64,000 nt of DNA from Asterella californica (Eukaryota; Streptophyta; Marchantiopsida; Marchantiales; Aytoniaceae), in NCBI GenBank assembly GCA_036924285.1, contig JAYKYS010000012.1, positions 9,176,001-9,240,000 on the forward strand, read 5' to 3'. The notes under the pieces were generated by a model that saw nothing but the letters and a program-made list of their open reading frames with translations, searched no databases and had not been told where the DNA came from. The position numbers were made by a program, and so were the translations under genes. Below are positions 30,904-63,715 of the stretch, piece after piece; positions within the stretch are counted from its first letter, which is position 1; each line of letters begins with the position of its first letter.

Positions 30904-30988
30904 TGAGGTGGAGGAGACTCGAACTCCCCACCTCCAGCAGCTTCGTAGCTTTTATACTGGCGCGCTAGCCTCTTCCGCAACCGCCCTG
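30904..30988 (-). other. tRNA-like module (resembles elongator tRNA-Met), copy 2
   Basis: A minus-strand copy of the module at 27403-27488 with GAGGCTAGCGCGCCAGTAT and GGGGAGTTCGAGTCTCC. The same expanded anticodon arm is present (CCAGTATAAAAGCTACGAAG). Sharing of this expansion shows the modules were copied together. Confidence 0.5.
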
Positions 30989-31347: not shown

Positions 31348-31497
31348 ATGTCAGTACTTGTACTCCAACAAGGATTGTGACGGTGTCACTAAATTAACTC
31401 AAGCGATTCTGGACAGATTTAGCTTCAGATATTTTTCTGGTAAGTTCAATACCACTTCTAACTGTGCAACCAAATCAGTATTTTTCTTGATTTTTCT
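31348..31497 (+). pseudogene. Unknown gene fragment, copy X3 (exon 1 only)
   Basis: ATG at 31348, donor-like GTAAGTTC at 31440. The intron is cut after about 45 bases (TTTTTCTTGATTTTTC) where family G LTR E begins. A plus-strand tRNA-like module lies upstream at 31064-31134, as in the other copies. Confidence 0.45.
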
Positions 31498-32881
31498 TGG
31501 TACGGAGGTTGGCTTCCAGCGCTTCTACCTTCTTCTGGCTTTCTTCTTGCCGCATCAGGGTGCGCAGACCGTATCCAGGTTGTAGTGGCTTCTCCTGAGC
31601 CATCGCTCTCTTCTCCACCAACTCTATAGCTGGTTGGATCTCCGAGTGGAAGAAGGCACTGGACTCCTCCAGTCTTCTTCCTGCGGAAGACAAACTCATT
31701 CCCATGATTCGGTTAGAGGTGTCTTCCTTGTCTTCCAGAGGTAGGGATGCCTCTTCCACCACTATGACCTTCTGTTTTTGCGCACGGGAAGAAGCTACTC
31801 TTCTCATCTTCCGGGGTGGAAGATCCCTCTCCATGGCAGAAGCGGTCCTCTTTACTGCGCTTCCTCTCATCGCAGTAGGAGTATCCATCCAACCTTCATC
31901 TTCTGGAGTCTTCAGAAGACTCCCTGGTGTTGCAGAAGCGGTCTTCTGCACAGCTCGGGTACTCAATGGCTCCTCCTGTGAGTCGGACTCCGATCCAGAG
32001 TGAATGATCGGGAAGGAGGTGGTCTTCCTAGGCACGCTCCTAGGACCCATCTTCCTTGGTGGTGTCGCGTCTTCTGACCCATTGGAGTCATCTTTCCTCA
32101 TCAGAAGCGTCTTCTGATGAGTACCCGGTCTCATCTGCGGCATCAGAGTAGGAGGGGGAGTCATTGCTGCTGCTCGGTCGTCTTCTCTCGAGGTCTCCTC
32201 CTTCGTCTCGTGCTGCCCTGTTGGTCCATATCTCACCAACTGATCTTCCGTGAGATCCCCCTTGGCCACGTACAGATAGCAGAAGAACGGAGTAAGATGT
32301 CCTCCTGCCGGGGTACCTAAGTACACCAGCTCTGCTTGTACATAAGCGTGGAAGAACGTGCCCCAGTTGATGGGTAGCCTCTCTCAAATGGCTTCCAGGA
32401 ATTCCACGTCCTGGTCTCCAAGGTACCTCGTCTTCTGCGCTTTCCTCTTGGGAAAGAGGTGAAGGAACAGCTTCGTCAGAAGACGCTTCTGCGGCTCTCT
32501 GTAAGCTTCGACCTTCCACCCGTTTCTTCCATGCCTGTCCTCCAAGAAGAGACAAGTTGTGCTTCCAAACACATGCCACTTCCCTGAGATAATGGGTAAG
32601 ATTTTCTTCTCCAGTTCGTACTCCTTGTTCTCTGCTTCTGACCTGTGGAAAACCCTACACCATCAATCTATTGTCTAGGAAGATGGTCTTCTCCGAGCTA
32701 CTCCTATCTTCGCAGATACACGGTTGCGGGGCGGTAATGCGGCCCAAACCTCTTCCAGAAGGCCCTGGTCGGTGAGGTTCCAATCCCACAGGAAGAAGTC
32801 GAGACCCAACTCCTTGATGAAGGGTTTGGCCTCGGCCAATTCCGCTGCAGGTAATACCAACCCTCGAGGATGCATCGACAT
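31498..32881 (-). pseudogene. LTR-borne coiled-coil protein, copy E (C-terminally truncated)
   Basis: Starts MSMHPRGLVLPAAELAEAKP (32881). The first segment ends at a stop after RRPSS at 32675. A second frame covers SLLGGQAWKKRVEGRS-type shifted sequence. The correct frame is recovered in MYLGTPAGGHLTPFFCYLYV (32326 leftwards), with SSGSEDATPPRKMGPRSVPR-like linker sequence, SGSESDSQEE, basic RKMRRVASSRAQKQK and the start of the coiled coil (MSLSSAGRRLEESSAFFHSE). It ends EALEANLRT at the junction. Several breaks make it non-functional. Confidence 0.75.
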
Positions 32882-34897
32882 ACTTGAATATCTGTTGCAC
32901 TAAGTCACACACGTACTTACTGTGAGCTGAAGGCTCAATCCTTCCCAGGTTCTCACAGTCTAGCTTCCACTTTCAGAAGACAACTACTCCATCTTCCGGG
33001 ATTCTAACAGTGCTTCCTAAGTAGCTCTCGTCTTCCGAGCTATATCTAAACAATCCTAACTAAGCAAGGCCTCGCATGGATTCCTAAGAAAACAACCCAC
33101 CTTGCATTACATCCTACTTCCTAACAGAAGATACAAGATATGCGAGAAGTAGAGTGTATGAAAAGTTCAGAAGATGGTCGCGGGCTCTTGCGATGACAGT
33201 GGCCTCTGGGAAGACTGCCGAGACAGCTTCTGATTCAATAACGTTCTCGGAAGACTTCCCGAAGCCAGGCCTCCCTTCACTGGTCTCATCTGTCTTCTGC
33301 TTCCAACACGCAATCTAACTTCACAACAGACACAAGACATTCGCACTCTGTTCTTCTGACTTCTCATCTCTCATACACACTCAGAAGAAGCTTGCTGCAT
33401 GTCGGGAAGACATGACCCTTGACCATTCTCTCCAGATTCTGCTAGCAAGACTTCTCACAACTCTATTCTAAGTTCGGGAAGAAGAAAGAATAGGCTACTA
33501 TGGGTCGGACAGAAGAGACCCGTAAAGGACCCTCACGTCTTCTCGCACATTCTGCCAGCCTTTCCAATCTTCTAGTCTCTCCAGGAAGATATGGATTTGA
33601 GAAGCTCGGAAGATCGGGAGGCGCAGGCCTGGATCCCAACTTTCAGCTCTCGAAACAACAAACAACTCACCAAGTCACTCAAGATTCATACCAAGCCTCT
33701 CTTAACACAAAAGCAAATCCAATCCACTCTCGATACAAATTACACACAGTAGTCTTCCGAAGACTTCAGACATTCAGAAGCGTCTTTCGAAGATGTTCAG
33801 GATTCAGAAGCGTCTTCGGAAGATGATCAGATCTTCCGAAGCGTCTTCTGTTCAGAGATTCGAGAGTAGACGAGCGGTAGGATAAGGAAATTGATAGATG
33901 CGAGATCGAATTTGAGAAGGACAGTAAGGAAAGCTTGATTGCACCTCGGGAACAAGCTAGAAGATGACTGTCGAAAATTGAGCAGCGCTTCCGTGCCCAA
34001 TTTCACAGAAGGAAAATGCGGATGGGAAATCAATCGATTGATTTTTCTGCAGACAACCGGGGAAGTGCGGGGATACCAAACAAAAGGTGAGAAGCAGAGG
34101 GGAGGGAAGAGAACATGGGAAGAACCTCAAACAATCTTCTGTCTGCTTCTGTAGTGTCTTCAGTCTTCTGCGTGCTTCCGGCTCCGATCCCAACTCTAAT
34201 GCGACTCCACCAAGCTGTTGCTACCATCAATGTCTTGCCACTCTTCAATCAAACAAGACTCCACCTCCGATTCTTCTCAGTCGTCCTTCAATGTCTGCTT
34301 CCGGGAGTCTTCAGAAGACTCCTTTAGCTCGATATGCTTCCTATCGTCAGCAATTCGTCCTCGCCTTCTTTCTAGCTGTGAATCGATCTGGACTCTACTC
34401 AATTTCACTCTACTTGCCCTCCTCGCTCAATTCGATCACCTCTCAATTTGATCTTCTAAGCACAAACGACCTCGATGCGGGAAGCGGTAGTGTTCTTGCG
34501 CTAATGCATCTTTTTCGCATCTTCTCGCGCAGTTTAAGGGTTCTCGACCTACTCGACTTTCCTGATCTACCTACTACCTCGGTGTTACCTGGTAGGTACA
34601 CCTATTTCTTTCCTGGGTAATACGCGGTTAGGCTTCTACGGTCGCTGTCTTCCGGAAGATACGTGTCTTCTGTCTTCCGCCGTCTTCCGTCTTCAGAAGA
34701 TACAATTGAGAAGACATTTCCCGGAAGACGGCTGTCTTCCGAAGAAGTCAACTTCTTGTTACTAAAAAGATCGTAAGATCATCTTCCTTCTAAGGAAGCC
34801 GTAGTCTTAAGTAACAAAGCTTCTTCAGTTATACAAACAAGTTATTAACCTTAAAAATTTCAAAAATTCGTGAATCCTGTAAATTGTGGGCACCACA
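31498..34897 (-). mobile_element. LTR E (family G), 3' LTR, truncated
   Basis: It starts TGTGGTGCCCACAATTTACA at 34897 on the minus strand, directly after a polypurine tract and pol gene, so it is a 3' LTR. It runs leftwards through the GAAGAC cluster, the hairpin at 33019-33048 and the first 60 percent of the LTR frame, and is cut at about 31498. This places the frame within an LTR that is adjacent to a pol gene. Confidence 0.88.
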
Positions 34898-34998
34898 CCC
34901 ACCCTCACATGTTTGCGTCCCCGCAAACATTAGTGTTTCAACACTTCTGTTTACGTCCAGTACTTCTTGACATGCCACCCATTTACACGAGTGGTCAT

Positions 34999-35933
34999 CT
35001 AATCTCTAGGGATCTCTAACTCGATGAGGACAACATGTGTCATGCCATAAGTTAGGTAGAAGGGTGTCTTCTGGGTCGTGACCTTGGGTGAAATCCTGAA
35101 AGTCCATAACACAGATGACAATTTTGTGTCCCAATCATACGCATGGTCAACTGTTATCTTATTCAGGATATTACAAAGAAGACCATTCGACTTCTCTATA
35201 AGTCCATTAGCTTTCGGGTTGTATGGCGTCTTCTTCCGATGCTTTATCCTGAAGTACTGGGTCAAGAGGGAAATAGTCTCATTTAAAAATGAGTACCCTT
35301 ATCTGATACCAGTTCCAGCGGGCATCCGTATCGGGTGATAATGTTGTGTCAGAGAAACCTGACTACCACTGCGGCGTCGTTTTTCCTTGTGGCTTCGCCC
35401 TCCACCATCTTGGTAGCATAGTCGGTAGCTATCAAAATATACCGTGCTCGCGTTCTTCTAGCCACCGGGACGATAGGCCCAACAAAGTCAATTCCCTACT
35501 TTTCAAAAGGAGCAAGCGGAAGAATGGGAGTAAGAGACCACCTAGTAGTAGCTGTTGGTCTTCCCACCCTCTGGCACGCATCACATTTTCTGATCTCCTG
35601 AAAAGTGTCTCTGTATATGGTCGACCACCAGTAACCGGCATCCAACATCTTTTTCACCGTGACCTTCAGCCCGTAGTGACCCCAGCATCTTCATAGTGAA
35701 GACCCGTGATCACTGGCTTAATCTCTGAAGGCTCCAAGCATCTCATGAGTTTCTCGTCATGTCTCTTCCTAAACAGGATACCTTGGAAGATGACGTAGGG
35801 ACCTACCTTGTGTAAGAAGACACTCCTCTGCTCCGCATCCAATCCCTCGGGGTACTGTTGGTCTTCCAAGAACTTCCTCAAGTCCTTGAAGATCGATTCT
35901 TTTGTGGAAGTCGCAAAGACCGGATCAGAAGAC
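34999..35933 (-). pseudogene. Integrase remnant, element E
   Basis: Recognisable minus-strand pieces are the post-RNase H segment with VFATSTKESIFKDLRKFLED (up to 35935 in a shifted frame), the zinc-region neighbourhood, and MTQYFRIKHRKKTPYNPKAN followed by GLIEKSNGLL (35265-34999), the glutamate part of the D,D(35)E core. The frame changes several times. The C-terminal GPY module seen in element 1 is not preserved in a readable frame; only about 100 bases separate the frame end from the polypurine tract, so it has been deleted. Confidence 0.75.
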
Positions 35934-36827
35934 CTAGTCTTGTCTTCTAGCAGGCGGTACGCCCCCCCTAGATGAAAGTGTCTCTGTGAAAACTGAAAAT
36001 AGCTTCTCGTCAAGGAACTCGTCTTCCACTTCATCTTCTCGTCGCTCCGTCTCCAATCTGGATAGGTAGTCAGCATTAACATGTTGTCTTCTAGGCCTGT
36101 ACTCAACTGTGTAAGTAAATTCCTGGAGTAGAAGAATCCACCTAGCTATCCTACCAGACAAATCTGCTTTCTTCACGAGATGTTTCAAAGAAAAATGATC
36201 CACATAGAAGACAAACGGGTTGGCTAGAAGATAGTGCCTAAACTTTCTACAGGAGTAAATCATACCAAGACACTCTCTTTTGATTGTCGAGTACTTCTTC
36301 TCTGCATCACTGAGTTGTCTTCCCGCATAATAGATGGGATAATCCTTCTTCTTCTCATCTTTCTGACTCAATACCACCCCTATGGCAAAAGCAGAGACAT
36401 CCACGTAAATGTAGAAGACTCTCTCTTAATCCGGTGGCCTTAGGACAGGAGATTCTGAGAGAAGTATTTTCATTTCTTCGAATGCTTCCTGCTGCTCAAA
36501 AGACCAAATGTAAGGTTCGTCCTTCTTCAGCAACTTGGTAAGTCTTCTTGCTACCTCTGCGTACCTGTCAATAAACCTCCTGTAGTATCTTACGTTGCCC
36601 AAGAAGCTTCTCAACTGAGTCAGGTTAGCAGGTGGGTGAAGTTTCATGATGACTTCCATCTTAGCACAGTCGACTTCTATACCTCTTCCAGAAATCCTAT
36701 GTCCTAGCAAAATTCCTTCTAACATACCAAAGAAGCACTTCTCAGGATGAAGAGCCAAGCGATGCTCTCTACACTTCAAAAAACACTTCCTTAGAAATAT
36801 CAAGTGATCTTCTTTCGATCCAAACAC
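35934..36827 (-). pseudogene. RT C-terminal part and RNase H, element E
   Basis: The minus strand reads MFGSKEDHLIFLRKCFLKCR, HPEKCFFGMLEGILLGHRIS and LRSFLGNVRYYRRFIDRYAE, then a stop at 36426 where element 1 has Trp. It continues YVDVSAFAIGVVLSQKDEKK, TIKRECLGMIYSCRKFRHYL and QHVNADYLSRLE (RNase H). The catalytic FLDDF lies just upstream at about 36835-36850 but is separated from this frame by a single-base deletion. GPR and acidic tail sequence follow before integrase. Confidence 0.85.
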
Positions 36828-37051
36828 ACAAAATCATCCAAGAAGATCTCCATGAATGTGCGAAGATACTCCTTGAAGATCGTGATCATCAGTCTCTGGA
36901 ATGTGGCGGGCGCGTTGTATAAACCAAACAGCATTTGATTGTTTGCGTACGTGCCCCAATCAGTAGTGAAAATGATTTTCGACTTGTCTTCTTCTCTGAT
37001 TGAAACTTGGTTGTATCCAGAATACTCATCCAGGAAGCTGTAGAACTCATG

Positions 37052-37933
37052 TCATGCTACCTGGTCTAACACAGAGTCGGTGAAGGGTAAAGGATGATGA
37101 TCCTTTTTCGTGGCCAACTTGAGCTTCCGGAAGTCCTGACACACTCGGATCTTACCTGTCTGTTTCTTTGGCACGATGACAATAGGAGCTACCCACTCAC
37201 TACTAAGTACTGGGAAGATGACTCCCGTCTTCAGATATTGATCGATCTGATCCTTCACCAAAAGCGAATACTTGGGATTGAGCCGATATTGCCTCTGCCT
37301 TGTAGGAACAACGCCTTCCAACAAGTCAATGCAATGCTCTCTCAGTTCTTGAGGTTTGCCCTTCATGTCTTCTATGGTCCAAGCGAAGACATCCTGGAAC
37401 TCTGTCAAAAGTTCTCTAAAGTCTTCCAACTGTTGGCCTTCGATCACCTTGGAAAGCTTCAGCTTCTTCCCAGGAGCAACCTCCATTTCTTGAAGATCAT
37501 CAGGGTTTACCATTCCTTCAATGTGTCTGTACTCACTGGCACCAAAGTATTCCGGTTTGGGAGCTTCTTCCTGCTCAGATTCGTCTTCTGGAAGACCAAC
37601 TGTCGGATCTTCCGAAGAGAAGACGGTACTTTCGTCTTCTGGAAGCTCTTTTTCCGCAATTTCGTAGCACTCAATGTATCCACAGATCACTTCTTCTGCT
37701 ATCTCTGCTACTTCTGTAGTACACAAGTTATTCACCACAAACTCATCATATCGTTCATCAATGTCAGAAGATGCAGCTGAGTCTTCTGACGTGTATCTCT
37801 CAATCGTAGAAGGAGTTTCGCCTTGGTGTCCAATCTTCATCCAAGGAAGTGAGACTTTGGTCTTCTCACCTGGCTTGGGTGTAGGATTGGGAAACCTCAA
37901 ACGATGGTATTTACATTTGCAGCATACAGCCAT
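37052..37933 (-). pseudogene. RT N-terminal part and upstream linker, element E
   Basis: A 293-codon stretch reads RLRFPNPTPKPGEKTKVSLP, an acidic linker with repeated ELPEDE phrases, VFAWTIEDMKGKPQELREH (Trp kept where element 1 has a stop), then RT motifs SEWVAPIVIVPKKQTGKIRV and HHPLPFTDSVLDQVA before TGA. It is the best-preserved part of this pol. The plus-strand 228-codon frame over it is an antisense shadow. Confidence 0.85.
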
Positions 37934-38321
37934 GGTCTTCCTATCAACACCTGATATACAACCTTAGCTATCGGTCGTAAAATGATGTAAGTGAGGTAAA
38001 AAGATACTCCTCCAATTACCGTCAAGACATCTTTCAGTTGTCTCAAAGGTCATCTTCTGGTCTGATCTGCCATTCTGAGGATTCTCGGAGTAGGCTGGAA
38101 CTCAATGAAACCTAGGGCGTGCGCAGTTTCTTCAGTCATGATGTTAACTCCGGAGCCGGAATCAATGGGTACCTTCTTCAGAAGACAGCCATGAATCTCC
38201 ATATCAAGTTCTGGGGCTCCCAAGTCTTCATGCTCTATTCTCAGGATCGGGGTGCTCTGAGGAAGCTTAGCTATCCTCTTCTTTCTCGATCCTCGAAGCA
38301 CGGATTGTAACAGCTTCCTGT

Positions 38322-38326
38322 AACCA
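38322..38326. repeat. Target site duplication of solo LTR D (left copy)
   Basis: AACCA at 38322-38326 and again at 44239-44243, directly outside TGTAGTG...CACCACA. Five bases is the usual Ty3/gypsy duplication length. Confidence 0.88.
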
Positions 38327-39901
38327 TGTAGTGTAACAGTATTACTCCTTTTGCCCATTTAGTATACAAGATATCGTTCCCACAAAGGATTTGCACAAGT
38401 AACGCTGCTCTAAGTTCTAAGATCTGTTCAAACACACAAACACACGGGTTTTGTCTAGAAATCCCGTCTTCTCACAAAAACCACGCTTCTTCCAGACACG
38501 TCACAAGGTGCTCTGGACCTAAACAAACAACTACTAACTAAAATATCATACATCTATTCACAGGGAAGCTCGGGAAGACGCGCTTCCTGCTTCCAGGCCG
38601 CTTCTTCTGATCTTCTCAATACCGTCTTCCCGAAGCGATCCTCAGCTTCTGGGGGTTCCACTCGGCTTCTCATACCTCCAGAAGACTGCTCTGCTTCGCA
38701 GAAGTTGAACTAGCAATGTCTGACACACATTGCTCTCTCTCACATTCCAACGGTTTAGATTAATCACAGGGTGTAGGTCCCCTGTAGCCTTCCCAAGCTT
38801 CTGCCTACGGAAATAGTCTTCTTGCAGCACTACAACGACATTCACCTTCACAGAAGCTCAATAGAAGTCTCGGAAGCTCACTAGAAGAAGGTAAGAAGAT
38901 GGGGAAGAAGGGAAAATCCAAACAACAGAAAACAAGATGAAAAGGAGAAATTAAGATTCCGACAGGCTTCTAGTCCGGATCCTGACTAACAAGCCATCCC
39001 TGCTTGTAATAGTTTGGGGAGGAAGACGACAAACGTGCGTACAGTTGCACCGTCTTCTACTTGAGGATGTCATCTTCTGTGGTGGGAAGAAGGCTTCTTT
39101 CTTCTTCTCTTCGCTGCTCCGGCTACTCTGTCATCTGGGATCTCTTACCCATAAGACCATCCATACGCGGATCCTAAGTGCTCCACTGGAAGAGCCAAGC
39201 TACACTTCCATCACTGCTGACAGTCACCGTCACTCAAGAAGAACACTTCTCATGCACAATTGGGAGCGAATTCAAGGAAATCCACCACCCAGAAGACACG
39301 AGCAAAGCTTCTGCACTCAAATCAGTAATCCATTCCCCGAGAAGAAGGTACATAAGTGTTGGGAAGCTCGCTCCCTCTACTGTCTGCTCCTACTCCTCGA
39401 TACACCAGCCTAACCAACAGGACTGCACGAGAATGCCGTTCTCTGTTCTTAAACTGTACACTACCTCTATCTACATCCTCAAATCATTGTTGGTAACAAG
39501 CATGCAGACCCCTCCTGTGTATTCCCAGACTATTCGTATGTTTCTCCCAACAGGTGTAGTGTGCACTGCAATATGTATCATGTGTCTGTGTGTGCTCTAT
39601 GTCTGCACCGTCAAATCGATGTGTGTGTGCAGAACTCTAATTCCCTACTCTTCGATCCTACTTATGCCGTCTACCACGAGAGCAGAGGAGGCGACCACCA
39701 GAGAGAGATGGGGCGCTGTCAGAAGGCTGCCAACCCACATGCAAACCAGTTCTCACTCTTGGTTTAGCCATCCACTTTGTTGTTTCCTACGCTACCTATG
39801 CTGCCACATGGTGTCCTAACTAAATTTACACTGAAAAACTGCCACCTTTAAGATAGCATGTTCGGTCCTACTAAACTGGGATGTCAACCTTCGATTACTG
39901 T
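38327..39901 (-). other. 3' part of LTR D after the frame
   Basis: About 1.57 kb between the frame stop and the LTR end, conserved in LTRs B, F and I. It contains a CCCCTGTAGCCTTCC stretch, an AAGAAGATGGGGAAGA-rich stretch, and the LTR end region with GGGCAAAAGGAGTAAT. Plus-strand open frames here (for example 39178-39819) are not conserved as proteins. R and U5 boundaries cannot be placed from sequence alone. Confidence 0.55.
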
Positions 39902-42220
39902 CTATGCTGATTGCTCGGTGGCAATCTCTACCTGATCTGCTCCTATCGGAGCTCCTAACGCGGCTTCTGATAAGCTAGCAAGCCCTGCGAACACCTCAGG
40001 TAACACTGAGGTGGTTTCCTCCTCCTCGTTCTTCGCTGGCCCTTCTGTCGCTGCTGCTGCTTCCTCCTCGGCTTCTGCTTCGGCTTCGGAAGACAGGAGT
40101 GTCTTCTAGGAAGCGGAGTCGAGTGGTGCTTCCTCGCTCTTCTGGAGCATAGGTTCGGTACTAGGGACCATGGCGACCTCATAGAGGTCCGAGGAAGTCG
40201 CTTCCTCCACACGGAATACCTGAGAAGACGGCTCGTCTTCCAGTCTTCCAAAAGACATCTTGTCTTCCGGACGTCTTCCGAGGTCTTCTCGGCTTCCAAC
40301 GCTATCACTACCAAGTGCACAGCGAGGTCGAACTCCTCCTTCTCCAAGTCTGGTCCTGTCGATGATGCTGGAGCTTGGGAAGATGCAGTTGCGGGTGTCG
40401 GAAGCGAGGGAAGACCATAGTGTGTCTTCACTCTCTCTATCTGCCGATCCAAATATCTGAACATGCTTTCCCTACATTCCACCAACATTGTCTTGGACTC
40501 GCTGTCCCATCCTCTAGCCAGGGTAAGCAACTTCCTACTTCACGGTGAAGTTGAACTTCTTCCGAAGCGCTTCCACCGATTGTGCTAGCATCTCCTGCGC
40601 ACGAGCTTCCGCTGCTTCCCGCTGCGTCTTCTTGGCTGCAACTCGCGCTTCTGCGGCTTCCTGTTGCGTCGTCCATGTCATCTTATCCTCTGCGAGGGCG
40701 GTGATCTTCTCCCGCACTCGAAGAACCTCCTGATCATGCTGCTGCAAGCGCGCCTGCAGCTCCTGGTAGCTCTTCCGAAGCTGCACCAACTCCTTGGTAG
40801 AAGCGGCTACTTCTTCCTTGAACTTTGCTGCGAGCTTCTCCGTAATATGAAGGTCAACTTCTAGTGCTTCTGCCTTCTTCTGGCCCTCTTCCTGCTGCAT
40901 CAGGAAACGTAGCCCGAATCCAGGTTGCAAGGGCTTCTCCTGAGCCTTCGCCTTCTTCTCCAGCAACTCCATAGCTGGCTGGATCTCTGAGTGGAAGAAG
41001 GCACTGAACTCTTCCAGCCTTCTTCCTGCGGAAGACAAGTTCATCTCCACAATCCGATCGGAGGTGCCTTCCTTCTTCCCTAGAGGTAAGGATGCCTCGT
41101 CTGCTGTTTTCGCCTTCTACTTCTGTACAGGGGGAGAAGCTACTCTTCTCGTCTTCCGAGGTGAAAGATCTCTCCCTATGGTAGAAGCGGTCCTCTTCAC
41201 TGCGCTTCCTCGCTTGGCAGTAGGGGTACCCATCCATCCTTTGTCTTCTGGAGTCTTCGGAAGACTCCCTGGTGTGGCAACAGCGGTCTTCTGCTCTGGT
41301 CGGGTACTCAAGAACTCCTCCGGTGAGTCAGACTCCGATCCCGAATGAATGAGGGAGGTGGGCTTCCTAGGTACACTTCTAGGACCCATCTTCCTCGGAA
41401 GCGTGGCGTCTTCCGATCCACTAGAGTCATCTTCCCGCACCAGAAGCGTCTTCTGATGAGTGCCGGACCTTGTCTGCGGCATCAGGGTGGGTGGGGGAGT
41501 CATTGCTGCGGCTCGGTCATCTTCTCCCGAGCTCTCCTCCTTCTCCTCACGCTTTCCTGTTGCTCTGTACCTTGCCAGCTGATCGTCCATCAGATCCCCC
41601 TTGGCTACGTACAAGTAACAGAAGAATTAAGTGAGATGGCCTCCTGCCGGAGTACCTAAGTACGCCAGCTCTGTCTGTACGTATGCGTGGATGTACGCAC
41701 CCGAGTTGACATTCTTCTCGATACACACTGCTTCCAGGAATGCTACGTCCTGATGTCCAAGATACCTTGTCTTCTGCGCTTTCTCCTTGGGAAAGAGATG
41801 CAAAAACAGCTTCGCCAGAAGTCGCTTCTTTGGCTCTCGGTAAGATTCGATCTTCCATCCGTTTCTTCCCTGCCGTTCTTCCAGAAAGAGACAAGTGGTA
41901 CTCCCAGGTACGTGCTACTGCCCTGAGATTATGGGTGAGATCTTCTTCTCGTACCAATAACCTTGGTGCTCCTCTTCTGACCTGTGGAAGGTAATGCGCC
42001 ACCAATCCTCGGTCCAGGAAGATGGTCTTTCACGAGCTACTCCTGCCTTCGCAGGTACACGGTTGCGTGGAGGTAACGCTGCCCAAACCTCCTTCAGCAG
42101 ACCCTGGTCGGCAAGGTTCCAGTTCCATAGGAAGAAGTCGAGACCCAACTCCTCGATGAAGGGTGAGACCTCGGCCAATTCTGCCGCTGGTAACACCAAG
42201 CCTCGCGGATGCATCGACAT
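39902..42220 (-). pseudogene. LTR-borne coiled-coil protein, copy D (full-length span)
   Basis: From ATG (MSMHPRGLVLPAAELAEVSP) to the terminal TAG after ATEQSA is 2319 bases, exactly 773 codons, so indels in it compensate. Stops: TAG at 41915 (Trp elsewhere in GQWHVP), TAA near 41627, TAG at 41117, TAG at 40535 beside a local frameshift. The coiled coil (41050-40535) has long runs of heptad-like Glu/Lys/Ala/Leu, for example RLQQHDQEVLRVREKITALA. The N-terminal SSWTEDWW is intact. Function unknown. No zinc knuckle, protease, RT or integrase motif is present in it. Ser/Glu-rich SGSESDSPEE could be phosphorylated, and the basic patch could act in nuclear import; both are inference. Confidence 0.8.
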
Positions 42221-49988: not shown

Positions 49989-50291
49989 TATAGTGAGCAC
50001 CATTTTTGACGTCGCTGCCGGGGATTTCATCTTAGTAATGCATGTTCTAAGCTTCCTGGATCTGTGTGCCAGCAGTTAGTTTCATTTCGAACTAACTTCG
50101 ATTGTAGTTGAATGTGTTGTGGGACTCTATCTTGCTAGAAGACAGGAACCGCAACCAGAAGCTGATGAGATACATCAGGGGGAGCTGGAAGAAGCCGTTT
50201 CCCTGCTTCCAAGAGTTTCTTGGAAGATTCGATCTTGGAAGACTGCAGTGAGTACAACAGGAAGCAGGAGAAGAAGACGTTCCGAAGCTCG
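49989..50291 (+). mobile_element. 5' leader of a family G element, truncated
   Basis: The short leader after LTR F holds the primer-binding site and a purine-rich stretch (GAAGACAGGAACCGCAACC onward). It ends at about 50291, where minus-strand LTR H sequence begins. No gag start is reached. Confidence 0.7.
50007..50023 (+). promoter_or_regulatory. Primer-binding site of family G (tRNA-Asp-like)
   Basis: TGACGTCGCTGCCGGGG lies 18 bases after the LTR end. It differs at three positions from TGGCGCCGTTGCCGGGG, the complement of a plant tRNA-Asp 3' end used by several plant gypsy lineages (recalled). The gap of 18 bases from the LTR is longer than usual. Confidence 0.65.
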
Positions 50292-50956
50292 TGCTGCCCT
50301 GTTGGTCCATATCTCGCCAACTGATCTTCCGTGAGATCCCCCTTGGCCACGTACAGATAGCAGAAGAACGGAGTAAGATGTCCTCCTACCAGGGTACCTA
50401 AGTACACCAGCTCTGCTTGTACATAAGCGTGGAAGAATGCGCCCCAGTTGATGGGTAGCCCCTCCCAAATCGCTTCTAAGAATTCCACGTCCTGGTCTCC
50501 AAAGTACCTCGTCTTCTGCGCTTTCCTCTTGAGAAAGAGATGAAGGAACAGCTTTGCCAGAAGACGCTTCTGCGACTCCCGGTAAGCTTCGACCTTCCAT
50601 CTGTTTCTTCCCTGTCTGTCCTCCAGGAAGAGACAAGTTGTGCTTCCAAGCACATGCCACTTCCCCGAGATCATGGGTAAGATCTTCTTCTCTAGTTCGT
50701 ACCCCTTGTTCTATGCTTCTGACCTGTGGAAAGCCCTACGTCACCAATCTACTGTCCAGGAAGATGGTCTTCCTCGAGCTACTCCTGCCTTCGTAGGTAC
50801 ACGGTTGCGAAGCGGTAATGCGGTCCAAACCTCTTCTAGAAGGCCCTGGTCGGTGAGGTTCCAATTCCACAGGAAGAAGTCGAGACCCAACTCCTTGATG
50901 AAGGGTTTGGTCTCGGCCAATTCCGCTGCAGGTAATACCAACCCTCGAGGACGCAT
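50292..50956 (-). pseudogene. LTR-borne coiled-coil protein, copy H (N-terminal part)
   Basis: The usual start ATG is changed to ACG; the next in-frame Met gives MRPRGLVLPAAELAETKPFI. It reads through LGLDFFLWNWNLTDQGLLEE to SSWTVDW and a TGA at 50741, the same stop position as copies B and I. A further frame covers ISGKWHVLGSTTCLFLEDRQ to FFCYLYVAKGDLTEDQLARY. It ends at the junction with the leader fragment at 50292. Confidence 0.75.
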
Positions 50957-51470
50957 CGACGTACTTGAATATCTGTTGCACTAAGTCACACGTACTTACT
51001 GTGAGCCGAAGGCTCAGTCCTTCTCATGTTCTCACAGTCTAGCTTCCACTTTCAGAAGACGAATCTAATCCTCCAGAAGACAGCTACTCCGTCTTCCAGG
51101 ATTCTAACAGTGCTTTCTAAGTAGCTCTCGTCTTCCGAGCTATATCTAAACAATCCTAACTAAGCAAGGTCTCGCATGGATTCCTAAGAAGACAACCCAC
51201 CTTGCATTACATCCTACTTCCTAACAGAAGATACAAGATATGCGAGAAGTAGAGTGTATGAAAAGTTCAGAAGATGGTCGCGGGCTCCTGCGGTGATGTG
51301 GCCTCTGAGAAGACTCCCAAGACAGCTTCCGATTCAATAACGTTCTCGGAAGACTTCCCAAAGCCAGGCTTTCCTTCACTGGTCTCATCTGTCTTCTGCT
51401 TCCGACACGCAATCTAACTTCACAACAGACACAAGACATTCGCACTCTGTTCTTCTGACTTCTCATCTCT

Positions 51471-51475
51471 CATAC
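51471..51475. repeat. Target site duplication of solo LTR I (left copy)
   Basis: CATAC at 51471-51475 and 57417-57421, directly outside the LTR ends. The uninterrupted host sequence CTCATACACACTCAGAAG is seen at the same LTR position in LTR E (33377-33394). Confidence 0.9.
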
Positions 51476-54400
51476 TGTAGTGACGCAGGATTACTCCTTT
51501 TGCCCATTTAGTATACAAGATATCGTTCCCACAGAGGATTTACGCAAGTAACGCTGCTCTAAGTTCTAGGATCTTTTCAAACACACAAACACACGGGTTT
51601 TGCCTAGAAATCCCGTCTTCTCACACAACCACACAAAACCACACGTCTTCCAGACACGCCAAAAGGTGCTCTGGAACTAAACAAACAACTACCAACTAAA
51701 ATATCACACAACTATTCACAGAGAAGCTCGGGAAGACGATATTCCTGCTTCCAGATCACTTCTTCCGGTCTTCTCGATACCGTCTTCCCGAAGCGATTCT
51801 CGTCTTCTGGGGATGCAGCTCGTCTTCTCACACCTCCAGAAGATTGCCATGCTCCACAAAAGTCGACTAGCAACGGTCGTTACACCTTACTCTTCCATTC
51901 ACATCACAACGGTTTAGATTAATCACAGGGTGTATGCCCCCTGTAGCCTTCCCAGGCTTCTGCCTACGGAAATGGTCTTCCTGCAGCACTACAACGACAT
52001 TCACCTTCACGGAAGCTCAATAGAAGTCTCGGAAGCTCACTAGAAGAAGGTAAGAAGATGGGGAAGATGAGAGAAGATGAGGAAGATGAGAAAATCCAAA
52101 CAAGAGAAAACAAGATGAAAAAGAAGAAATTAAGTTTCCGACAGGCTTCTAGTCCGGATCCTGACTAACAAGCCATCCCTGCTTGTAATAGTTTGGGGAG
52201 GAAGACAACAAACATGAGTACTGTTGCACCGTCTTCTACTCGAGGATGTCGTTTTCTGTTGCAGGAAGAAGGCTTCTTTCTTCTTCACGTCGCTGCTCTG
52301 ACTACTCTGTCTTCTGGGATCCCTTATCCATAAGACCGTCCGTACGCAGATCCCAAGTGCTCAACTAGACGAGCCAAGCTACACTTCCACAACTGTTGAC
52401 ATTCACCGCCGCTCAAGAAGAACACTTCCCATGCACAATTGGGAGCGAATTCAAGAAAACCCACCACCCAGAAGACATGAACAAAGCTTCTGCACTCAAA
52501 TCCACAATCCATTCCCCGAGAAGAAGTCACAATGACACTGGGAAGCTCACTCCCTCTACTTCCTGCGCCTACTCCTCGACACACCAGTCTAGTCAACAGG
52601 ACTGCACGAGGATGCCGTTCCCTGTTCCTAGATTGTCCACCACTTACACCTACATCTCCAAGCCGCTGCTGATAACCAGAGAATGCAGACTTCTTCCTAC
52701 GTGATCCCCTTAGTCTAACATCAAGCGTAGCTAATCTGTCTGCACCGTAGAATCTGTATGTGTGTGCAGATCTCTGTAGTGTGTCATGTGTCTAATGTGC
52801 TCTGAGTCTGCCTGCACCATAAAATCGATGTGTGGGTGCAGTCGCTACAGAACTCTCTCTCCTACTCTTTGATCTTATTTATGTCGCTGCCATGAGAACA
52901 CAGAGGAGGCGACCACCAGGGAGAGAGAGGCGCTGACAAGAGGCTGCCACCTCACATGCAAGCGGTTCTCCTTCCTAATTAGCCATCCACCTTGTTGCTC
53001 CTTCGCTACGTATGCTGCCACATGGTATCCTAACTAATTTTACACTGAAAACTGCCACCTTTAAGATAGCATGTTTTGGTCCTACTAAATCTAGAATAGT
53101 CAATTTGGTTACTATCTACTCTGATTGCTCGGAGGCAACCTCTACCTGATCTGCTCCTATCGGAGCTCCTAACACGGCTTCTGATAAGCTAGAAAGCCCT
53201 GCAGTTATCTCGGGTGTCACTGAGGTGGCTTCCTCCTCATCGTTCTTTGCTGACCCTGCTGTCGCTGCTGCTGCGTCTTCCTCGGCTTCGGCTTCTGCTT
53301 CGGAAGACAGAAGCGTCTTCTGGGAAGCGGCGTCGAGCGGTGCTTCTTCCATCTTCTGAGGCACTAGTGCGGGACTAGGGATCATGGCGGCCTCATAGGG
53401 GTCCGGGGAAGTCGCTTCCTCCACGCGGAATACCTGGGAAGACGGCTCGTCTTCCTGTCTTCCGTGGCGTCTTCTTGAGTCTTCTCGGCTTCCAACGCTG
53501 TCACTACCAAGTGCACAGCGAGATCGAATTCCTCCTTCTCCATCCCGGATCCAGTCGATGGTGCCGGAGCTTGAGAAGATGCAGTTGCAGGTGTCGGAAG
53601 CGAGGGAAGATCATAAAGTGTCTTCACTCCTTTGATTTGTCGATCCAAGTACCTGAACATGCTCTCCCTGCATTCCACCAACATTGTCTTGGACTCGTTG
53701 TCCCATCCTCTAGCCAAGGTAAGTAACTTCCTACCCGCGGTGAAGTTGAACTTCTTCCGAAGCGCTTCCACCGACTGTGCTAGCATCTCTTGTGCACGAG
53801 CCTCCGCTGCTTCCCGCTTCGTCTTCTCAACTGCAACTCGCGCTTCTGCGACCTCCTGCTGTCTCACCCATGTCATCTTCTCCTCTGCGAGGGCGGTGAT
53901 CTTCTCTCGCACTCGGAGGACCTCCTGATCGCGCTGCTGTACACGCGTCTGCAACTCCTGGTTGCTCTTCCCAAGTTGTACCAGCTCCTTGGCAGAAGCG
54001 GCTGCTTCCGTCTTGTACCTGGCTGCGAGCTTCTCCGTGGTGCGGAGACTAGCTTTCAGCGACTCCGTCTTTTTCTGGTCTTCTTCCTGTCACAGCAAGG
54101 TGCGCAGACCGAATCCAGGTTGCAATGGCCTCTCCTGAGCCTTCGCTCTCTTCTCCAGCAACTCCATAGTTGGCTGGATCTCCTTGTGGAAGAAGGCGCT
54201 GAACTCCTCCAGTCGTCTTCCTGCGGAAGACAAGTTCATCTCCACCACTCGCTCTGAGGTGTCGACTTCATCTTCCAGAGGCACAGAAGCCTCTTCCACC
54301 ACAATGGCCTTCATCTTCTGCGCACGAGAAGAAGCTACTCTTCTCATCTTCCAGGGTGGAAGATCCCTCATGGCAGGAGCGGGTCTCTTCACTGCGCTTC

Positions 54401-57400
54401 CTCGCATCGCAGTAGGAGTATATCTTCTTCTCTTGTCTTCTGGAGTCTTCGGAAGACTCCCAGGTGTTGCAGAAGCGGTCTTCTGCTCCGATTGGGTACT
54501 CAGCAGTTCTTCTTCCGAGTCGGACTCCGATCCTGAATGAATGAGGGAGATGGGTGTCCTAGGTACACTTCTAGGACCCATCTTCCTCGGTGGCATGGCA
54601 TCTTCCGACCCACTAGACTCGTCTTCCTTCACCAGAAGCGTCTTCTGGTGAGAGTCGGGCCTCAGCTGTGGCATCAGAGTGGGAGGGGGCGTTGCGGCTG
54701 TTGCTCGGTCATCGTCTTCCGAGGTCTCCTCCTTCACCTCTTATTGCCCTGTTGGTCCATACTCTGCCAGCTGATCTTCCCTAAGATCCCCCATGGCTAC
54801 ATACAAGTAGCAGAGGAAAGGTGTCAAGTGTCCTCCCGCCGGCGTACCCAAGTACGCTAGCTCCGTCTGTACATAGTTGTGGATGTATGCGTCCCAGTAG
54901 ATGGGCATTCTGTCATCCCACACTGATTCCAGGAACTCCACGTCCTGATCTCCCAAGTACCTCGTCTTCTGCACTTTCCCCTTGGGAAAGAGATGCAGAA
55001 ACAGCTTCGTCAGAAGTCGCTTCTTCGACTCTCGGTAAGATTCGATCTTCCACCCATTCCTGCTCTGCCTGTCTTCCACAAAAAGACAGGTGGTGCTCCC
55101 AGGCACATGCCACGAACTCACGATCCTGGGCAAAATCTTCTTCTCAAACCAATACCCTCGGTTCTCAGATTCTGGCCTGTGGAAAGCCCTGCGTCACCAA
55201 TCTTCAGTCCAGGAAGATGGTCTTCCTCGAGCTACTCCTGCCTTCGCAGGTACACGGTTGCGAGGTGGCAACGCTGCCCACACCTCCTCCAGAAGTCCCT
55301 GGTCTGCGGGGTTCCAATCCCATAGGAAGAAATCGAGACCCAATTCCTTGAGGAAGGGCGTGGCCTCTGCCAACTCCGCTGCTGGTAACACCAACCCTCG
55401 AGGATGCATCGACATACTGGAAGATCTGTTGCACTAAGCCACAAGCACCTACTATGAGCTGAAGGCTCAGTCCTTCCTAAGTGCCCACAGTCTAGCTTCT
55501 ACTTATCAGAAGACGAAACTAATCTTCCAGAAGACAGCTACTCCGTCTTCCGGGATTCTAACAGTACTTCCTAGATAGCTCTCGTCTTCCGAGCTATATC
55601 TAAACAATCCTATCTAAGCAAGGCCTTGCATGGATTACCCAGAAGACAACCCACCTTGCATTACATCCTACTTCCTATCAGAAGATACAAGATTCGTGAA
55701 ACATGAAGTGCATAACAGGTTCGGAAGATGGTTGCGGGCTCCTGCGGTGACAGTGGCCTCTGGGAAGACACTCGGGACAGTTTCCGATTCAATGTCTTTC
55801 TCGGAAGACCTCCCGGAGTCAGACTTCCCTTCACTGGTCTCACCTGTCTTCGTCTTCCTACGCGTAATATATCCTCACAACAGACTCAAGACAATTGCAC
55901 TCTGTTCTTCTGACTTCTCATCTCTCATACGCACTCAGAAGAAGCTTGCTGCTCGATGGGAAGACATGACCCTCGACCATTCTCTCCAGATTCTGCCAGC
56001 AAGTCTTCTCACAAATCTCTTCTAAGTTTGGGAAAAAGAAGGAATGGCTACTATGGGTCGGACAGATGAGACCCGAAATGGACCCTCACGTCTTCTCGCT
56101 CATTTTGCCAACCTTTCAGTCTTCTAGTCTCTCTAGGAAGATGTGGAGTTGAGAAGCTTGGAAGACCGGGAGGCACAGGCCTAGTTCCCGACTTCCAACT
56201 TCTCGAAATAACAAAATAACTCACCACACCACTCAGGATTCGTACCAAGCCTCTCTTAACACAAAAGCAACACAAATCCACTCTTGATACGAATTGGTTA
56301 TAGTCGACTTCCGAAGACAGTCAAGTTTAAGAAGCGTCTTCCGAAGATGTTCCCATCTTCCGAAGCGTCTTCTGTTCAGAGTTTCGGGTGTAGAGGGATA
56401 GTAGGATAGGGAAATTGATGGCTGGGATCGTAAATTTGGGGACGAGGTGTAGAGAAGCTCGAATTGAACTTAGGAAGAAGTAGGAAGATGTCTGACAGAA
56501 ATTGGGCAGCGCTTCCGCACCCAATGTCACAATAAGAAAAATAGGGATGGGGGTAATCGATCAGGCTGCCTGCAACCAACCAGGGAAGCGCGGGGGACAC
56601 AAAACAGATGCGAGAAGCAGTGGGAAGGGAGAAGAACATGGGAAGAACCTCTACAGTCTTCTGTCTTCTTCCCGAGGTGTCTTCGACCTTCTGCACGCTT
56701 CTGGCTCTGGTTCTAGCTCCAATGCGACTCCACACGGCTGATTCCGCTGTCAGGTTCTGGCCACGCCTCAATTCCATCTTCGATTCTACTCAGCTACTCT
56801 CCAATGTCAGCTTCCCGGGAGCTCACAAAAACGCCTTCGCTCCCTGCCTTCCGTGCTTCAGCAATTCGGTCTCGTCCTTCGCCTAGCTGCCAACTGGTCC
56901 TCACCTCGCTCGCTTTCCTCACTCAATTTCCTCACTCGATTTCCTCTCACGAAGCTCACTCTCCTGAAATCGATCTTCTCAAGCGCGCTTGCTGCGGGAA
57001 GTTGGAATGCGCTAATGCGCTTCCTGCGCATCTTCCCCGCAGATTAGGGGTTTCGGCCTTAGGTGTCTTTCCCGACCTACCTACCACCTGGGTGTTACCT
57101 AGTAGATACACCTACTCTTTTACCTAGAAACTCGTGGTTAGGCCTTCGCGGTCGCTGTCTTCCGGAAGATAGGTGTCTTCTGCCGTCTTCTCGTCTTCCG
57201 CCGTCTTCCCGTCTTCCGAAGACGCAACTGAGAAGACGCTTCCCGGAAGACGGTCGTCTTCCGAAGAAGTCAACTTCTTATTAAAAAGCTCATAAGATCA
57301 TCTTCTCTCTAAGGAAGCAGTAATCTTAAGTAACAACGCTTCTTCAGATATACAAACAAGTTATTTAATCTTAAAAATTTAAAAATTCGTGAATCCTGTA

Positions 57401-57416
57401 ATTTGTGGGCACCACA
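51476..57416 (-). mobile_element. Solo LTR I (family G), complete, 5941 bases
   Basis: This is a complete LTR on the minus strand from TGTGGTGCCCAC (57416) to CACTACA (51476), with CATAC duplicated at both sides, inserted in LTR H. Contents are collinear with solo LTR D: GAAGAC cluster (57160-57265), hairpin (55573-55601), frame (55415-53116), 3' part (53115-51476). It is the best-preserved LTR copy. It has no internal retroviral genes. Confidence 0.92.
53116..55415 (-). pseudogene. LTR-borne coiled-coil protein, copy I (best preserved)
   Basis: Starts MSMHPRGLVLPAAELAEATP and ends VEVASEQSE at 53116, about 767 codons. It stays in one frame down to about 53470. Stops are TGA after SSWTEDW (55194), TAA at 54741 (Arg/Gln elsewhere) and TGA at 54090 (Arg elsewhere). 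One frameshift near 53470 precedes the acidic tail (SSEAEAEAEEDAAAATAG). Segments: aromatic N-terminal region, SGSESDSEEE linker, basic RKMRRVASSRAQKMK-like patch (here WKMRRVASSRAQK), coiled coil with RVQQRDQEVLRVREKITALA, RKLLTLARGWDNESKTMLVE, ECRESMFRYLDRQIKGVKTL. I do not recognise the family. A relation to plant mobile-domain-type proteins is possible but unsupported here. Confidence 0.8.
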
Positions 57417-58868
57417 CATACACACTCAGAAGAAGCTTGCTGCATGACAGGAAGACAGGACCCTTGACCTTTCTCTCCAGATTCTGCCAGCAAGACTTCT
57501 CACAACTCTCTTCTTAGTTCGGGAAGAAGAAGGAATAGGTTGTGGGTCGGACAGAAGAGATCCGTAAAAGACCCTCACGTCTTCTCGCGCATTCTGCCAG
57601 CCTTTCCAATCTTCTAATCTCTCCATGAACATGTGGATTTGAGAAGCTCAGAAGATCGGGAGGCGCAGGCCTGGATCCCAACTTTCAGCTTCTCGAAACA
57701 ACAAACAACTCACCAAGTCACTCAAGATTCGTACCAAACCTCTCTTAACACAAAAGCACATTCAGAAGCGTCTTCCGAAGATGTTCAGATCTTCCGAAGC
57801 GTCTTCTGTTTAGAGATTCGAGAGTAGAGGGACGGTAGGGTAGGAAAATTGATAGCTGCTGGATCGAATTTGAGAACGACAGTCATGGAAGCTTGATTGC
57901 AGCTCGAGAAGAAGCTAGAAGATGACTGGCGAAAATTGGGCAGCGCTTCCGCGCTCAATTTCACAGAAGGAAAATGCGGGATGAGAAATCGATCGATTGG
58001 TTTACCTGTAGATAACCGGGGAAGCGTAGGAGATACCAAACAAGAAGTGAGAAGCAGAGGGGAAGGGAAGAGAACATGGGAAGAACCTCAAACAATCTTC
58101 TGTCTGCTTCCGTAGTGTCTTCAATCTTCTGCGTGCTTCCGGCTCCGATCCCAGCTCTAATGCGACTCCACCAAGCTGTTGCTGCCGTCAATGTCTTGCC
58201 ACTCATCAATCGAACAAGACTCCACCTCCGATTCTTCTCAATCGTCCTTCAATGTCTGCTTCTGGGAGTCTTCAGAAGACTCCTTCAGCTCGATGTGCTT
58301 CCTACCCTCAGCAATTCGTCCTCGTCTTCTTTCTAGCTGTGAATCGATCTAGGCTCTACTCAATTTCCCTCTGCTTGCCCTCCTCGCTCAATTCGATCAC
58401 TTCTCAATTTGATCTTCTAAGCACAAACAACCTCGATGCGGGAAGCGGTAGTATTCCTGCGCTAATGCATCTCCTTCGCATCTTCTCGCGCAGTTTAGAG
58501 GTTCTCGACCTACCCGACTTTCCTGACCTACCTACTACCTCGGTGCTACCTGGTAGGTACACCTACTTCTTTCTTGGGTAATACGCGGTTAGGCTTTTGC
58601 AGTCGCTGTCTTCCGGAAGATACGTGTCTTCCGCCGTCTTCCGTCGTTTGTCGTCTTCCGTCTTTGGAAGATACAACTGAGAAGACGCTTCCCGAAAGAT
58701 GGCCGTCTTCCGAAGAAATCAACTTCTTGTTGCTAAAAAGATCGTAAGATCATCTTCCTTCTAAGGAAGCAGTAGTCTTAAGTAACAAAGCTTCTTCAGT
58801 TATACAAACAAGTTATTAACCTTAAAAATTTCAAAAATTCGTGAATCCTGTAAATTGTAGGCACCACA
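57417..58868 (-). mobile_element. LTR H (family G), 5' portion
   Basis: It starts TGTGGTGCCTACAATTTACA at 58868 on the minus strand and runs to the LTR I insertion site. The GAAGAC cluster is at 58605-58710. The right flank (GATAGCCTACTAACTAAAA) matches the tail sequence of block X2 at 29789, so LTR H inserted into that kind of repeat. Confidence 0.87.
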
Positions 58869-63712: not shown

Positions 63713-63715
63713 GAG

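Follow-up and report, generated by a model that had tools for sequence, protein, structure and literature searches.

Most of the window, by which we mean the whole 64,000-nucleotide stretch of Asterella californica DNA analysed here, consists of copies, nested in one another, of a Ty3/gypsy family whose LTRs measure about 5.9 kb, and these LTRs carry a sense-oriented gene of about 770 codons whose protein is under purifying selection. Our confidence in this anatomy and in the selection on the frame is high, and it excludes the function of the protein. The first-pass annotation had proposed a sense gene inside a 5.9-kb LTR, and full-length elements in the 516.7 Mb of genome that was searched confirm it. 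The frame occupies approximately positions 2021–4339 of a 5948-bp LTR, stopping 1.6 kb short of the LTR 3′ end, and the intact natural ORF from its ATG encodes 772 aa.

The check set beforehand was to find elements with two such LTRs around gag-pol and to see if both carry the frame. The element at C21:14698315-14716785 has a match over the full frame length in each LTR. Its 5′ LTR (5931 bp) is followed by a primer-binding site (PBS) and its 3′ LTR (5897 bp) follows a polypurine tract (PPT); the two LTRs are 96.79% identical, and the target duplication is imperfect (GGTTG/TGTTG, 4/5 bases). A second element, on C1, also has the frame in both LTRs, which are 96.3% identical, with the 3′ LTR degraded. 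Coding sequence is thus found within both LTRs of one insertion in the pairs L039/L041 and L042/L044. Units of a pair lie on either side of gag-pol, together with PBS and PPT; they share 95.6–97.7% identity, compared with 87.9–94.8% for units of different insertions. The internal region is about 6.6 kb and encodes gag, RT, RNase H, and integrase, with a weak protease match. In another copy's internal region, Pfam gave Retrotrans_gag (1.5e-7), zf-CCHC (2.9e-6), RVT_1 (3.1e-12), RT_RNaseH (1.3e-31), and Integrase_H2C2 (2.5e-9), while the protease match was weak (0.042); RVT_1, RT_RNaseH, and Integrase_H2C2 follow one another in this order in a single 489-aa piece. With gag and pol between LTRs and RT/RNase H ahead of integrase, the elements are Ty3/gypsy, and they have the paired TG...CA LTRs, PBS, PPT, and target duplications (imperfect at the C21 element, perfect in seven solo LTRs) of LTR retrotransposons. 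The nearest named proteins to the RT are from Marchantia (73% over 98%) and Riccia (73% over 80%). Genome-wide there are 3556 exact matches to the 12-mer TGTGGTGCCCAC, against 20 for the reversed control, and LTR-PBS junctions number 1012 at ≤3 mismatches, against 0; these counts differ in stringency, and no solo-to-full ratio is derivable from them.

In the window, an internal region with RT and integrase (85–3844, plus strand; RVT_1 5.4e-22, Integrase_H2C2 5.7e-9) ends at a PPT, where its 3′ LTR starts (3845–4838, plus). This LTR, 80% identical to 4839–5841, is broken at 4839 by another LTR, the 5′ part of which (4839–6314, plus) resumes, beyond an insertion, as 11192–13371 (plus), with the frame from about 11640 and a 340-aa stop-free stretch at 12351–13370. 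There follow an LTR piece within the frame (16343–18034, plus; stop-free pieces of 122, 185, and 255 aa) and an LTR copy that begins with TGTGGTGCCCAC (18035–22057, plus; frame from about 20057). The in-window element is read on the minus strand. Its 3′ LTR, X (31498–34897, minus), is truncated at 31498 and has frame sequence at about 31498–32876. Its pol part (34898–38326, minus), 90% identical to 85–3423, ends in a PPT and gave RT_RNaseH at 3.9e-32 in 35937–36425 and a weak protease match (0.24) in 38053–38325 in Pfam; 37055–37963, searched alone, had no Pfam match. On the gag side of the internal region (44239–46833, minus), there is a weak Retrotrans_gag match (0.0021, below cut-off) in 45569–46039, and the same region elsewhere reaches 1.5e-7. 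The 5′ LTR, Y, consists of an inverted segment (46834–50287, plus) that holds the 3′ half of the LTR with the frame end, the LTR end at 49988, and a PBS at about 50007–50025, which we take to be tRNA-Asp-like; a middle part (50288–51475, minus; 92% identity to X); and the start (57417–58868, minus; 91–93% identity to X).

Two further LTRs, U1 (38327–44238, minus; 5912 bp) and U2 (51476–57416, minus; 5941 bp), lie inside the internal region and inside LTR Y, respectively. They have TG...CA ends, duplications of AACCA/AACCA and CATAC/CATAC, and broken frames at about 39957–42220 and 53116–55415. Because both align end to end with LTR L039 of a full-length element, we conclude that they are solo LTRs, and with L045–L049 from elsewhere they make seven frame-carrying solo LTRs with perfect 5-bp duplications. 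The earlier description of these two units as having TG...CA ends, 5-bp duplications, and the frame was correct, as was that of the succession of frame end, LTR terminus, and PBS in the segment that starts at 46834. The LTR starts that it placed after pol and a PPT at 34897 (minus) and 3845 (plus) were also found; the latter reads TGTGGTGCTCAC, one base off the word noted.

The frame had been described as 770 codons long. This length is real, since open copies exist elsewhere, but the window copies are all broken: none stays open for about 770 codons, stop-free LTR pieces reach no more than 340 and 295 aa, and U1 and U2 have four and three in-frame stops, plus non-triplet indels in both. The open copies, which were fetched for their long frames, comprise six distinct ones with 769–802 codons from MHPRG and a seventh with 736. 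In solo LTRs, too, the frame persists and is in some cases open. When one piece of the frame was used as the query against the genome, 7 of the 119 best copies scored lacked stops within the match and were open for 740 aa or more. Most sampled copies are broken, and frame deletions among 39 copies are more often non-triplet (29) than triplet (9). We considered frame-preserving indels as evidence for the gene and rejected them; U1 versus U2 is mostly clean, but 29 against 9 over 39 copies fits decay. The claim that every full-length insertion has the frame twice holds for the paired elements but is too strong as a rule. At the expected offsets from 10 pol copies, frame sequence was present on at least one side in all 10 and on both sides in five. 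Of nine LTR-PBS junctions, viewed in narrow 301-bp windows, five had the frame where expected on one side or both, and one of them had it on both; the expected 5′ place had frame sequence in only two. Many sampled LTRs are interrupted or deleted, some with internal deletions, and two frames are not in every element.

Upstream of the frame, a donor-like site at LTR position 1783 (mostly AAG/GTGGGT) has an invariant GT in the 10 copies compared, and the ATG is closely preceded by an acceptor-like AG. These sites suggest a candidate, as yet unproven, intron ahead of the ATG. A spliced-out genomic copy was not seen, as 47 of 58 alignment matches (overlapping loci counted twice) ran from the donor through to the acceptor without any gap >30, and the putative spliced junction pattern had no genome-wide match at ≤2 mismatches. 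In the reference copy L045, none of the TATA-type words or AATAAA signals is shared by as many as 5 of 10 copies, and the promoter, the R region, and the poly(A) site could not be placed.

Selection on the frame was estimated from NG86 omega. For 10 LTRs (45 pairs), the median is 0.26 in the frame, compared with 0.98 and 1.13 in the wrong frames and 0.62–0.81 in the LTR flanks. Between the two LTRs of one insertion, however, omega is 0.70 and 0.65. The low omega across LTRs, together with these higher values within one insertion, therefore shows that the protein was selected during the spread of the family. The window copies, chosen without regard to protein similarity, gave omega values of 0.13–0.47 over 32 comparisons. 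Furthermore, substitutions between U1 and U2 over LTR positions 2019–3630 number 83, 73, and 160 at codon positions 1, 2, and 3, and the flanks have no such bias.

The hexamer GAAGAC is conserved and is spread over the element in either orientation at a density of about 10 per kb. Over 85–58868, counted on both strands as GAAGAC/GTCTTC, it has densities of 7.3–12.1 per kb throughout the 11 family segments, compared with 0.19–1.43 per kb in four other window segments. There are 455 copies in 44.2 kb of family sequence and 18 in the 19.4 kb of non-family DNA from the window (0.93 per kb), which served as the background. One LTR has 71 copies in both orientations, against 6.4 ± 2.7 in simulations. 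The frame has 27, distributed over all three codon phases, whereas shuffling of its synonymous codons gives 11.2 ± 2.2, and 0 of 2000 shuffles reach 27; the RT piece from the window shows no excess over codon usage. In the noncoding LTR, retention in other copies is 0.78 for the motif and 0.60 for other hexamers. The abundance of the motif mostly exceeds what protein and codon usage explain, and within the window it has the density of a family-specific short motif, as in a VANC-type system.

What is the function of the 772-aa protein? Because it has NLS-like stretches and a coiled-coil-like region, it is probably a nuclear protein. Pfam, searched with window pieces of the frame and with the whole natural protein, gave nothing at cut-off; the seven weak matches of the 772-aa protein include none named for a superantigen, and no homology to Sag was seen in this search. 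In a 5.8-billion-protein database, there was no relative among the 7999 candidates scored for a 340-aa piece or the 7989 for the whole protein, by short-word matching of limited sensitivity; liverwort proteins are present in this database, as the RT piece matched some. A PDB sequence search with one 150-aa piece gave three weak matches to designed proteins, which we take as chance. An AlphaFold2 model of that piece, part of the N-terminal region, run with six further window pieces, had a mean pLDDT of 44 and was unusable for a fold search. Thus, no homologue of any kind was found in Pfam or among the candidates scored, and a functional role has no homology support at the Pfam cut-off or among these candidates.

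We suggest that the LTR location would yield two gene copies in each reverse-transcription cycle, and that LTR-LTR recombination would leave one in the solo LTR. The product would be a nuclear protein that helps copies of its own element, with GAAGAC binding as the most likely means. Judged from the sequence, some motif-binding role of the accessory protein is a tentative proposal with a sizeable minority of the probability. By analogy with VANC, the nuclear protein might bind the element-wide hexamer (some hundred or more copies, coding ones included) and counter host silencing in cis and in trans, although we regard this fuller version as rather unlikely.

LTRs are ordinarily non-coding, and the sag gene of MMTV is similar to the present one in being a protein gene inside the LTR that persists in solo LTRs, with purifying selection reported (accessible part of PMC4667437). 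However, MMTV is an animal retrovirus, whereas here about 770 codons are in a plant gypsy element, and the searches show no sequence relationship. Most of sag has been mapped to U3, whereas the frame here is placed by its LTR coordinates. The rice gypsy elements Retrosat2, RIRE3, and RIRE8 also have long LTRs (about 3 kb) and an extra ORF of unknown function, ORF0; in the accessible part of PMC3485330, it is upstream of the gag-pol ORF, is not described as LTR-encoded, and is not found outside grasses. Our frame differs from a Retrosat2-type ORF0 in being within the LTR and present at both element ends. The anti-silencing VANC system of the Arabidopsis VANDAL elements similarly combines an element protein with a short motif that is dense in the family concerned and in part tandemly repeated over short distances, and the VANDAL motifs are mainly in noncoding DNA and in a single orientation (accessible part of PMC5735166). 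Here, the motif is also in coding regions and in both orientations. VANDALs are DNA transposons, and the present element, being Ty3/gypsy, does not belong to them. For the liverwort Lunularia cruciata, the accessible part of PMC9985172 reports Ty3/Gypsy bursts and has no mention of an LTR-borne gene. In the literature searched, mostly outside subscription journals, no plant LTR retrotransposon was described as having a gene within its LTR; one grass match proved to be a host gene within a retrotransposon.

The LTR gene could instead be a structural or transposition helper, such as an extra Gag, a chaperone, or a targeting factor, with the motif unrelated. The ORF0 precedent in plant gypsy elements and the purifying selection on the frame give this reading an appreciable, though minor, chance. 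The frame is, however, inside the LTR, and it does not replace gag, because a gag with a zinc knuckle is present in the internal region, which leaves room for a helper role. It is also conceivable, although doubtful, that the motif acts in RNA as a purine-rich splicing, export, or packaging signal of the genomic RNA, with the LTR protein as a helper that binds RNA or resembles Gag. Sense copies do exceed antisense copies by about 2–3:1 (35–52 and 16–25 per LTR), and the neighbouring words GAAGAA and GAAGAT are also common (54 each). But the antisense word alone is far over the expectation of 6.4 for both orientations, GAAGAG is rare (19 vs 120) despite being as purine-rich, and no genomic copy with the putative intron before the ATG spliced out was seen in the searches made.

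A recent entry of a host gene into the LTR, with passive carriage thereafter, is a very improbable account of the frame. The candidates scored include no homologue among retroelement proteins, which would suit such an origin, but they include no host homologue either, and purifying selection over copies at dS of about 0.5–1.0, near-neutral within one insertion's LTRs, requires selection during amplification. Finally, many 5.9-kb units are found alone with 5-bp duplications, as if they were a separate non-autonomous transposon with its own gene and not LTRs. This reading is refuted by the pairs that enclose gag-pol, PBS and PPT included, with members more alike within than between insertions, and the LTR-PBS junctions also oppose it, so that it retains almost no probability.

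A selected gene of about 770 codons in an abundant plant gypsy LTR shows that an entire accessory gene can be housed in the repeat, double with each insertion, and persist in solo LTRs after the rest of the element is gone. Together, the gene and the element-wide motif provide a directly testable case of how recognition and favouring of its own copies by a retrotransposon might work. If such self-recognition is true, solo LTRs would be sources of the factor dispersed throughout the genome.

A self-comparison of the window (C21:9176001-9240000, in an assembly of 516.7 Mb) showed that one repeat family, with its copies nested in each other, makes up most of 85-22057 and 31498-58868. The first-pass annotation had described 38327-44238 (U1) and 51476-57416 (U2) as units with TG...CA ends and 5-bp duplications. 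Both have the ends TGTGGTGCC...CACTACA, with the duplications AACCA for U1 and CATAC for U2, and both align end to end with one LTR of a full-length element. These features bear out the description and identify both units as solo LTRs.

The element into which they are nested lies on the minus strand. Its 5' LTR (Y) occupies 58868-57417 and 51475-50288, split by U2, and is continued by a block at 46834-50287 containing the LTR end (49988), the primer-binding site (PBS) and the first internal bases. From the coordinates, this block appears to be an inversion that flipped the end of the 5' LTR together with the PBS. Next come a gag-like frame (46833-44239, minus strand) and, beyond U1, pol and the polypurine tract (PPT; 38326-34898, minus strand), followed by the 3' LTR (X; 34897-31498, minus strand), which is cut off at 31498. 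The identity of X to Y is 91-93% in three blocks and 88% in a fourth, well above the 78-79% of X to U1 and U2, and X and Y are therefore taken as a pair. The frame sequence is present in both.

Other repeats are also seen in the window. A different LTR element at 22058-26951 has direct terminal repeats of 720 bp that are 99.86% identical; its long frame looks gag-like by eye, with a CCHC-like stretch, and gave no Pfam match at the cut-off. It is probably a young non-autonomous insertion. Within an LTR copy, an insertion at 6318-11191 is bounded by direct repeats of about 1.1-1.2 kb that share 97-98% identity, and no protein family match was found for its longest frame. The segments 26953-31491 and 58953-64000 have long direct duplications in common (about 87-96%), plus related short tandem arrays, and contain few GAAGAC motifs.

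Full-length elements with the frame in both LTRs, as the LTR-gene proposal predicts, were found elsewhere in the assembly. At C21:14698315-14716785, TATAGTGAGCATTATTTTTGGCACCGCTGCCGGGGAT comes after the 5' LTR (L039 816-6746) and the PPT before the 3' LTR (L041 390-6286), and the flanks are GGTTG and TGTTG. The two LTRs are 96.79% identical (5697 bases the same and 189 different, 147 of these being transitions), and each contains a full-length match to the frame, with one in-frame stop in each copy and, additionally, a 4-base gap in the 5' copy. The LTRs of a second element, on C1 (L044/L042), are 96.3% identical, the 3' LTR being without its ends, and a third 5' LTR with a PBS (L050) has an open frame. 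The frame is open in all five of the solo LTRs L045-L049, which have perfect duplications and were picked for their long frames in the genome list. In the partial LTRs L051 and L053, picked likewise, the frame is cut or broken, while in L052, also partial, it is open for 736 codons.

Insertions were also sampled independently of the frame. Ten loci, spaced through 149 listed RT matches and including the two matches with the longest open frames, were examined in 1.5-kb windows at the expected frame sites, with the frame called at ≥160 bp. The frame was found downstream in 9/10, upstream in 6/10, on both sides in 5/10 and on at least one side in all ten; the upstream and downstream windows matched each other in four of the ten pairs, with identities of 95.6, 96.8, 97.5 and 97.7%. 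At 9 of 100 listed exact LTR-PBS junctions, 301-bp windows (frame called at ≥100 bp) contained the frame upstream in two, downstream in four, on at least one side in five and on both sides in one. Of the remaining upstream windows, two had LTR sequence in a shifted register and five had none; downstream, LTR-like sequence ran the opposite way in three of the remaining windows and was absent from two. The junction test gives weaker support than the pol-based test, its short windows being sensitive to indels; nested insertions and LTR deletions also occur. Two 3' LTRs (L058 and L066) lack 1.7-2.5 kb, some of it frame sequence, and are possible deletion derivatives of the family. From both locus tests, therefore, the frame belongs to the full LTR of the family, though it has been lost or broken in many single LTRs. 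The claim that it is doubled in every full-length insertion is too strong.

A natural ORF of 772 aa starting at ATG is found at L010:787-3105. Among the copies fetched, six distinct ones keep the frame open from MHPRG for 769-802 codons, and one more does so for 736; three copies carry two names (L010/L045, L012/L046 and L021/L047). Of 119 scored genome copies, 7 lack any stop within the match and are open for 740 aa or more. These 119 had the highest protein similarity among 10518 first-look candidates, so the share does not stand for the whole genome. The median NG86 omega for 39 copies (739 pairs) was 0.31. Protein similarity was the criterion by which most of these copies had been picked, so the copies in the window were used as a check; 32 comparisons, each over 150 codons or more, gave 0.13-0.47. 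The highest values were 0.47 for B-X, which are two LTRs of one insertion, and 0.44 for D2-F2, with 0.42 for X-Y. For ten LTRs (45 pairs), omega was 0.26 in the frame, 0.98 and 1.13 in the wrong frames, 0.64-0.73 in the 5' flank and 0.62-0.81 in the 3' flank. Judged by the flanks, neutrality in this simple method corresponds to about 0.65-0.7, and the two LTRs of a single insertion gave 0.70 and 0.65 (two pairs). The frame is thus neutral after insertion and constrained between insertions.

The 772-aa protein gave no Pfam match at the cut-off and no homologue among the scored candidates of a protein database search. By eye and composition, it has a W/Y-rich N-terminal part of about 225 residues, an acidic stretch rich in S and P, basic NLS-like stretches (328-358), a charged, coiled-coil-like region rich in A/E/K/Q/R (about 400-560) and an acidic tail.

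The top hexamer of the family sequence in the window is GAAGAC/GTCTTC, with 455 occurrences in 44.2 kb of family DNA versus 18 in 19.4 kb of the window outside the family. Each of 11 LTR and internal segments of the window has 7.3-12.1 motifs per kb. One LTR contains 71, compared with 6.4 ± 2.7 in first-order simulations (maximum 15 in 200). Purines are favoured on both sides of the motif, and several local tandem repeats of family DNA include it. Counted over one LTR together with an internal stretch, GAAGAC occurs 120 times, GAAGAA and GAAGAT 54 times each and GAAGAG 19 times; because GAAGAG is far rarer than GAAGAC, the motif is not plain purine richness. When protein and codon usage were held fixed in 2000 shuffles per piece, the observed count was 27 versus 11.2 ± 2.2 for the frame (reached in 0/2000), 12 versus 3.9 for the RT-RH-INT piece (0/2000), 8 versus 2.2 for a further pol piece (0/2000), 9 versus 3.4 for the gag/NC piece (1/2000), 8 versus 2.8 for the window INT piece (1/2000) and 5 versus 2.2 for the gag piece (45/2000). 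The window RT piece (3 versus 1.9; 546/2000) and two control frames were not enriched. Between copies, motif sites are retained at a higher rate than the remaining hexamers, 0.783 versus 0.596 in the noncoding LTR (p ~1e-4) and 0.823 versus 0.625 in the frame (p ~2e-4), where the p values are from random draws and ignore the relatedness of the copies. U1 and U2 have 44 sites in common, with 9 private to U1 and 21 to U2.

Conservation across copies is 0.91-0.96 at LTR 1200-2000, 0.91-0.95 at 4800-5948 and 0.78-0.86 at 300-1050; the two better conserved stretches are candidate promoter or leader regions. In L045, LTR 1200-2000 is noncoding, lies 5' of the frame and is conserved about as well as the coding region or better. 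LTR 1783-2020 in this copy runs from a conserved site resembling a splice donor to an acceptor-like AG immediately 5' of the start codon of the frame, and no spliced-out copies of this putative intron were found among the genomic copies.

The location in the LTR, the duplication, the selection and the motif are established. We propose that the LTR-frame protein would enter the nucleus and would act on its own element via the GAAGAC motif. There are two main rivals. The motif could be an RNA signal, a reading favoured by the excess of sense copies (35-52 sense and 16-25 antisense per LTR in 11 LTRs), or the product of the frame could be a helper protein with no connection to the motif. By analogy, the VANC system of the VANDALs is the nearest working model for a protein that acts via the motif. 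VANDALs are DNA transposons, whereas the gene described here lies in the LTR of a gypsy element. In the VANC study (PMC5735166), the element protein binds a short motif dense in its own family and brings about loss of DNA methylation there. The VANC motifs are mainly noncoding and in the same orientation, whereas GAAGAC is found in coding and noncoding DNA and on both strands.

Among the named proteins matched in a database search, the one nearest to the RT piece is from Marchantia polymorpha (73% over 98%), and further matches include Riccia fluitans, Calypogeia fissa and the fern Adiantum, in keeping with a liverwort host. Ty3/Gypsy bursts are reported for Lunularia cruciata (PMC9985172). 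Among known LTR genes, the MMTV gene sag lies mostly in U3 and also persists in solo LTRs (PMC4667437). The extra ORFs of Retrosat2 and related plant gypsy elements are placed upstream of the gag-pol ORF (PMC3485330), whereas the Asterella californica frame is within the LTR. No report of a gene inside the LTR of a plant element was found among the open-licence papers searched. If the motif and the LTR protein belong together, this family may represent something beyond the known kinds.
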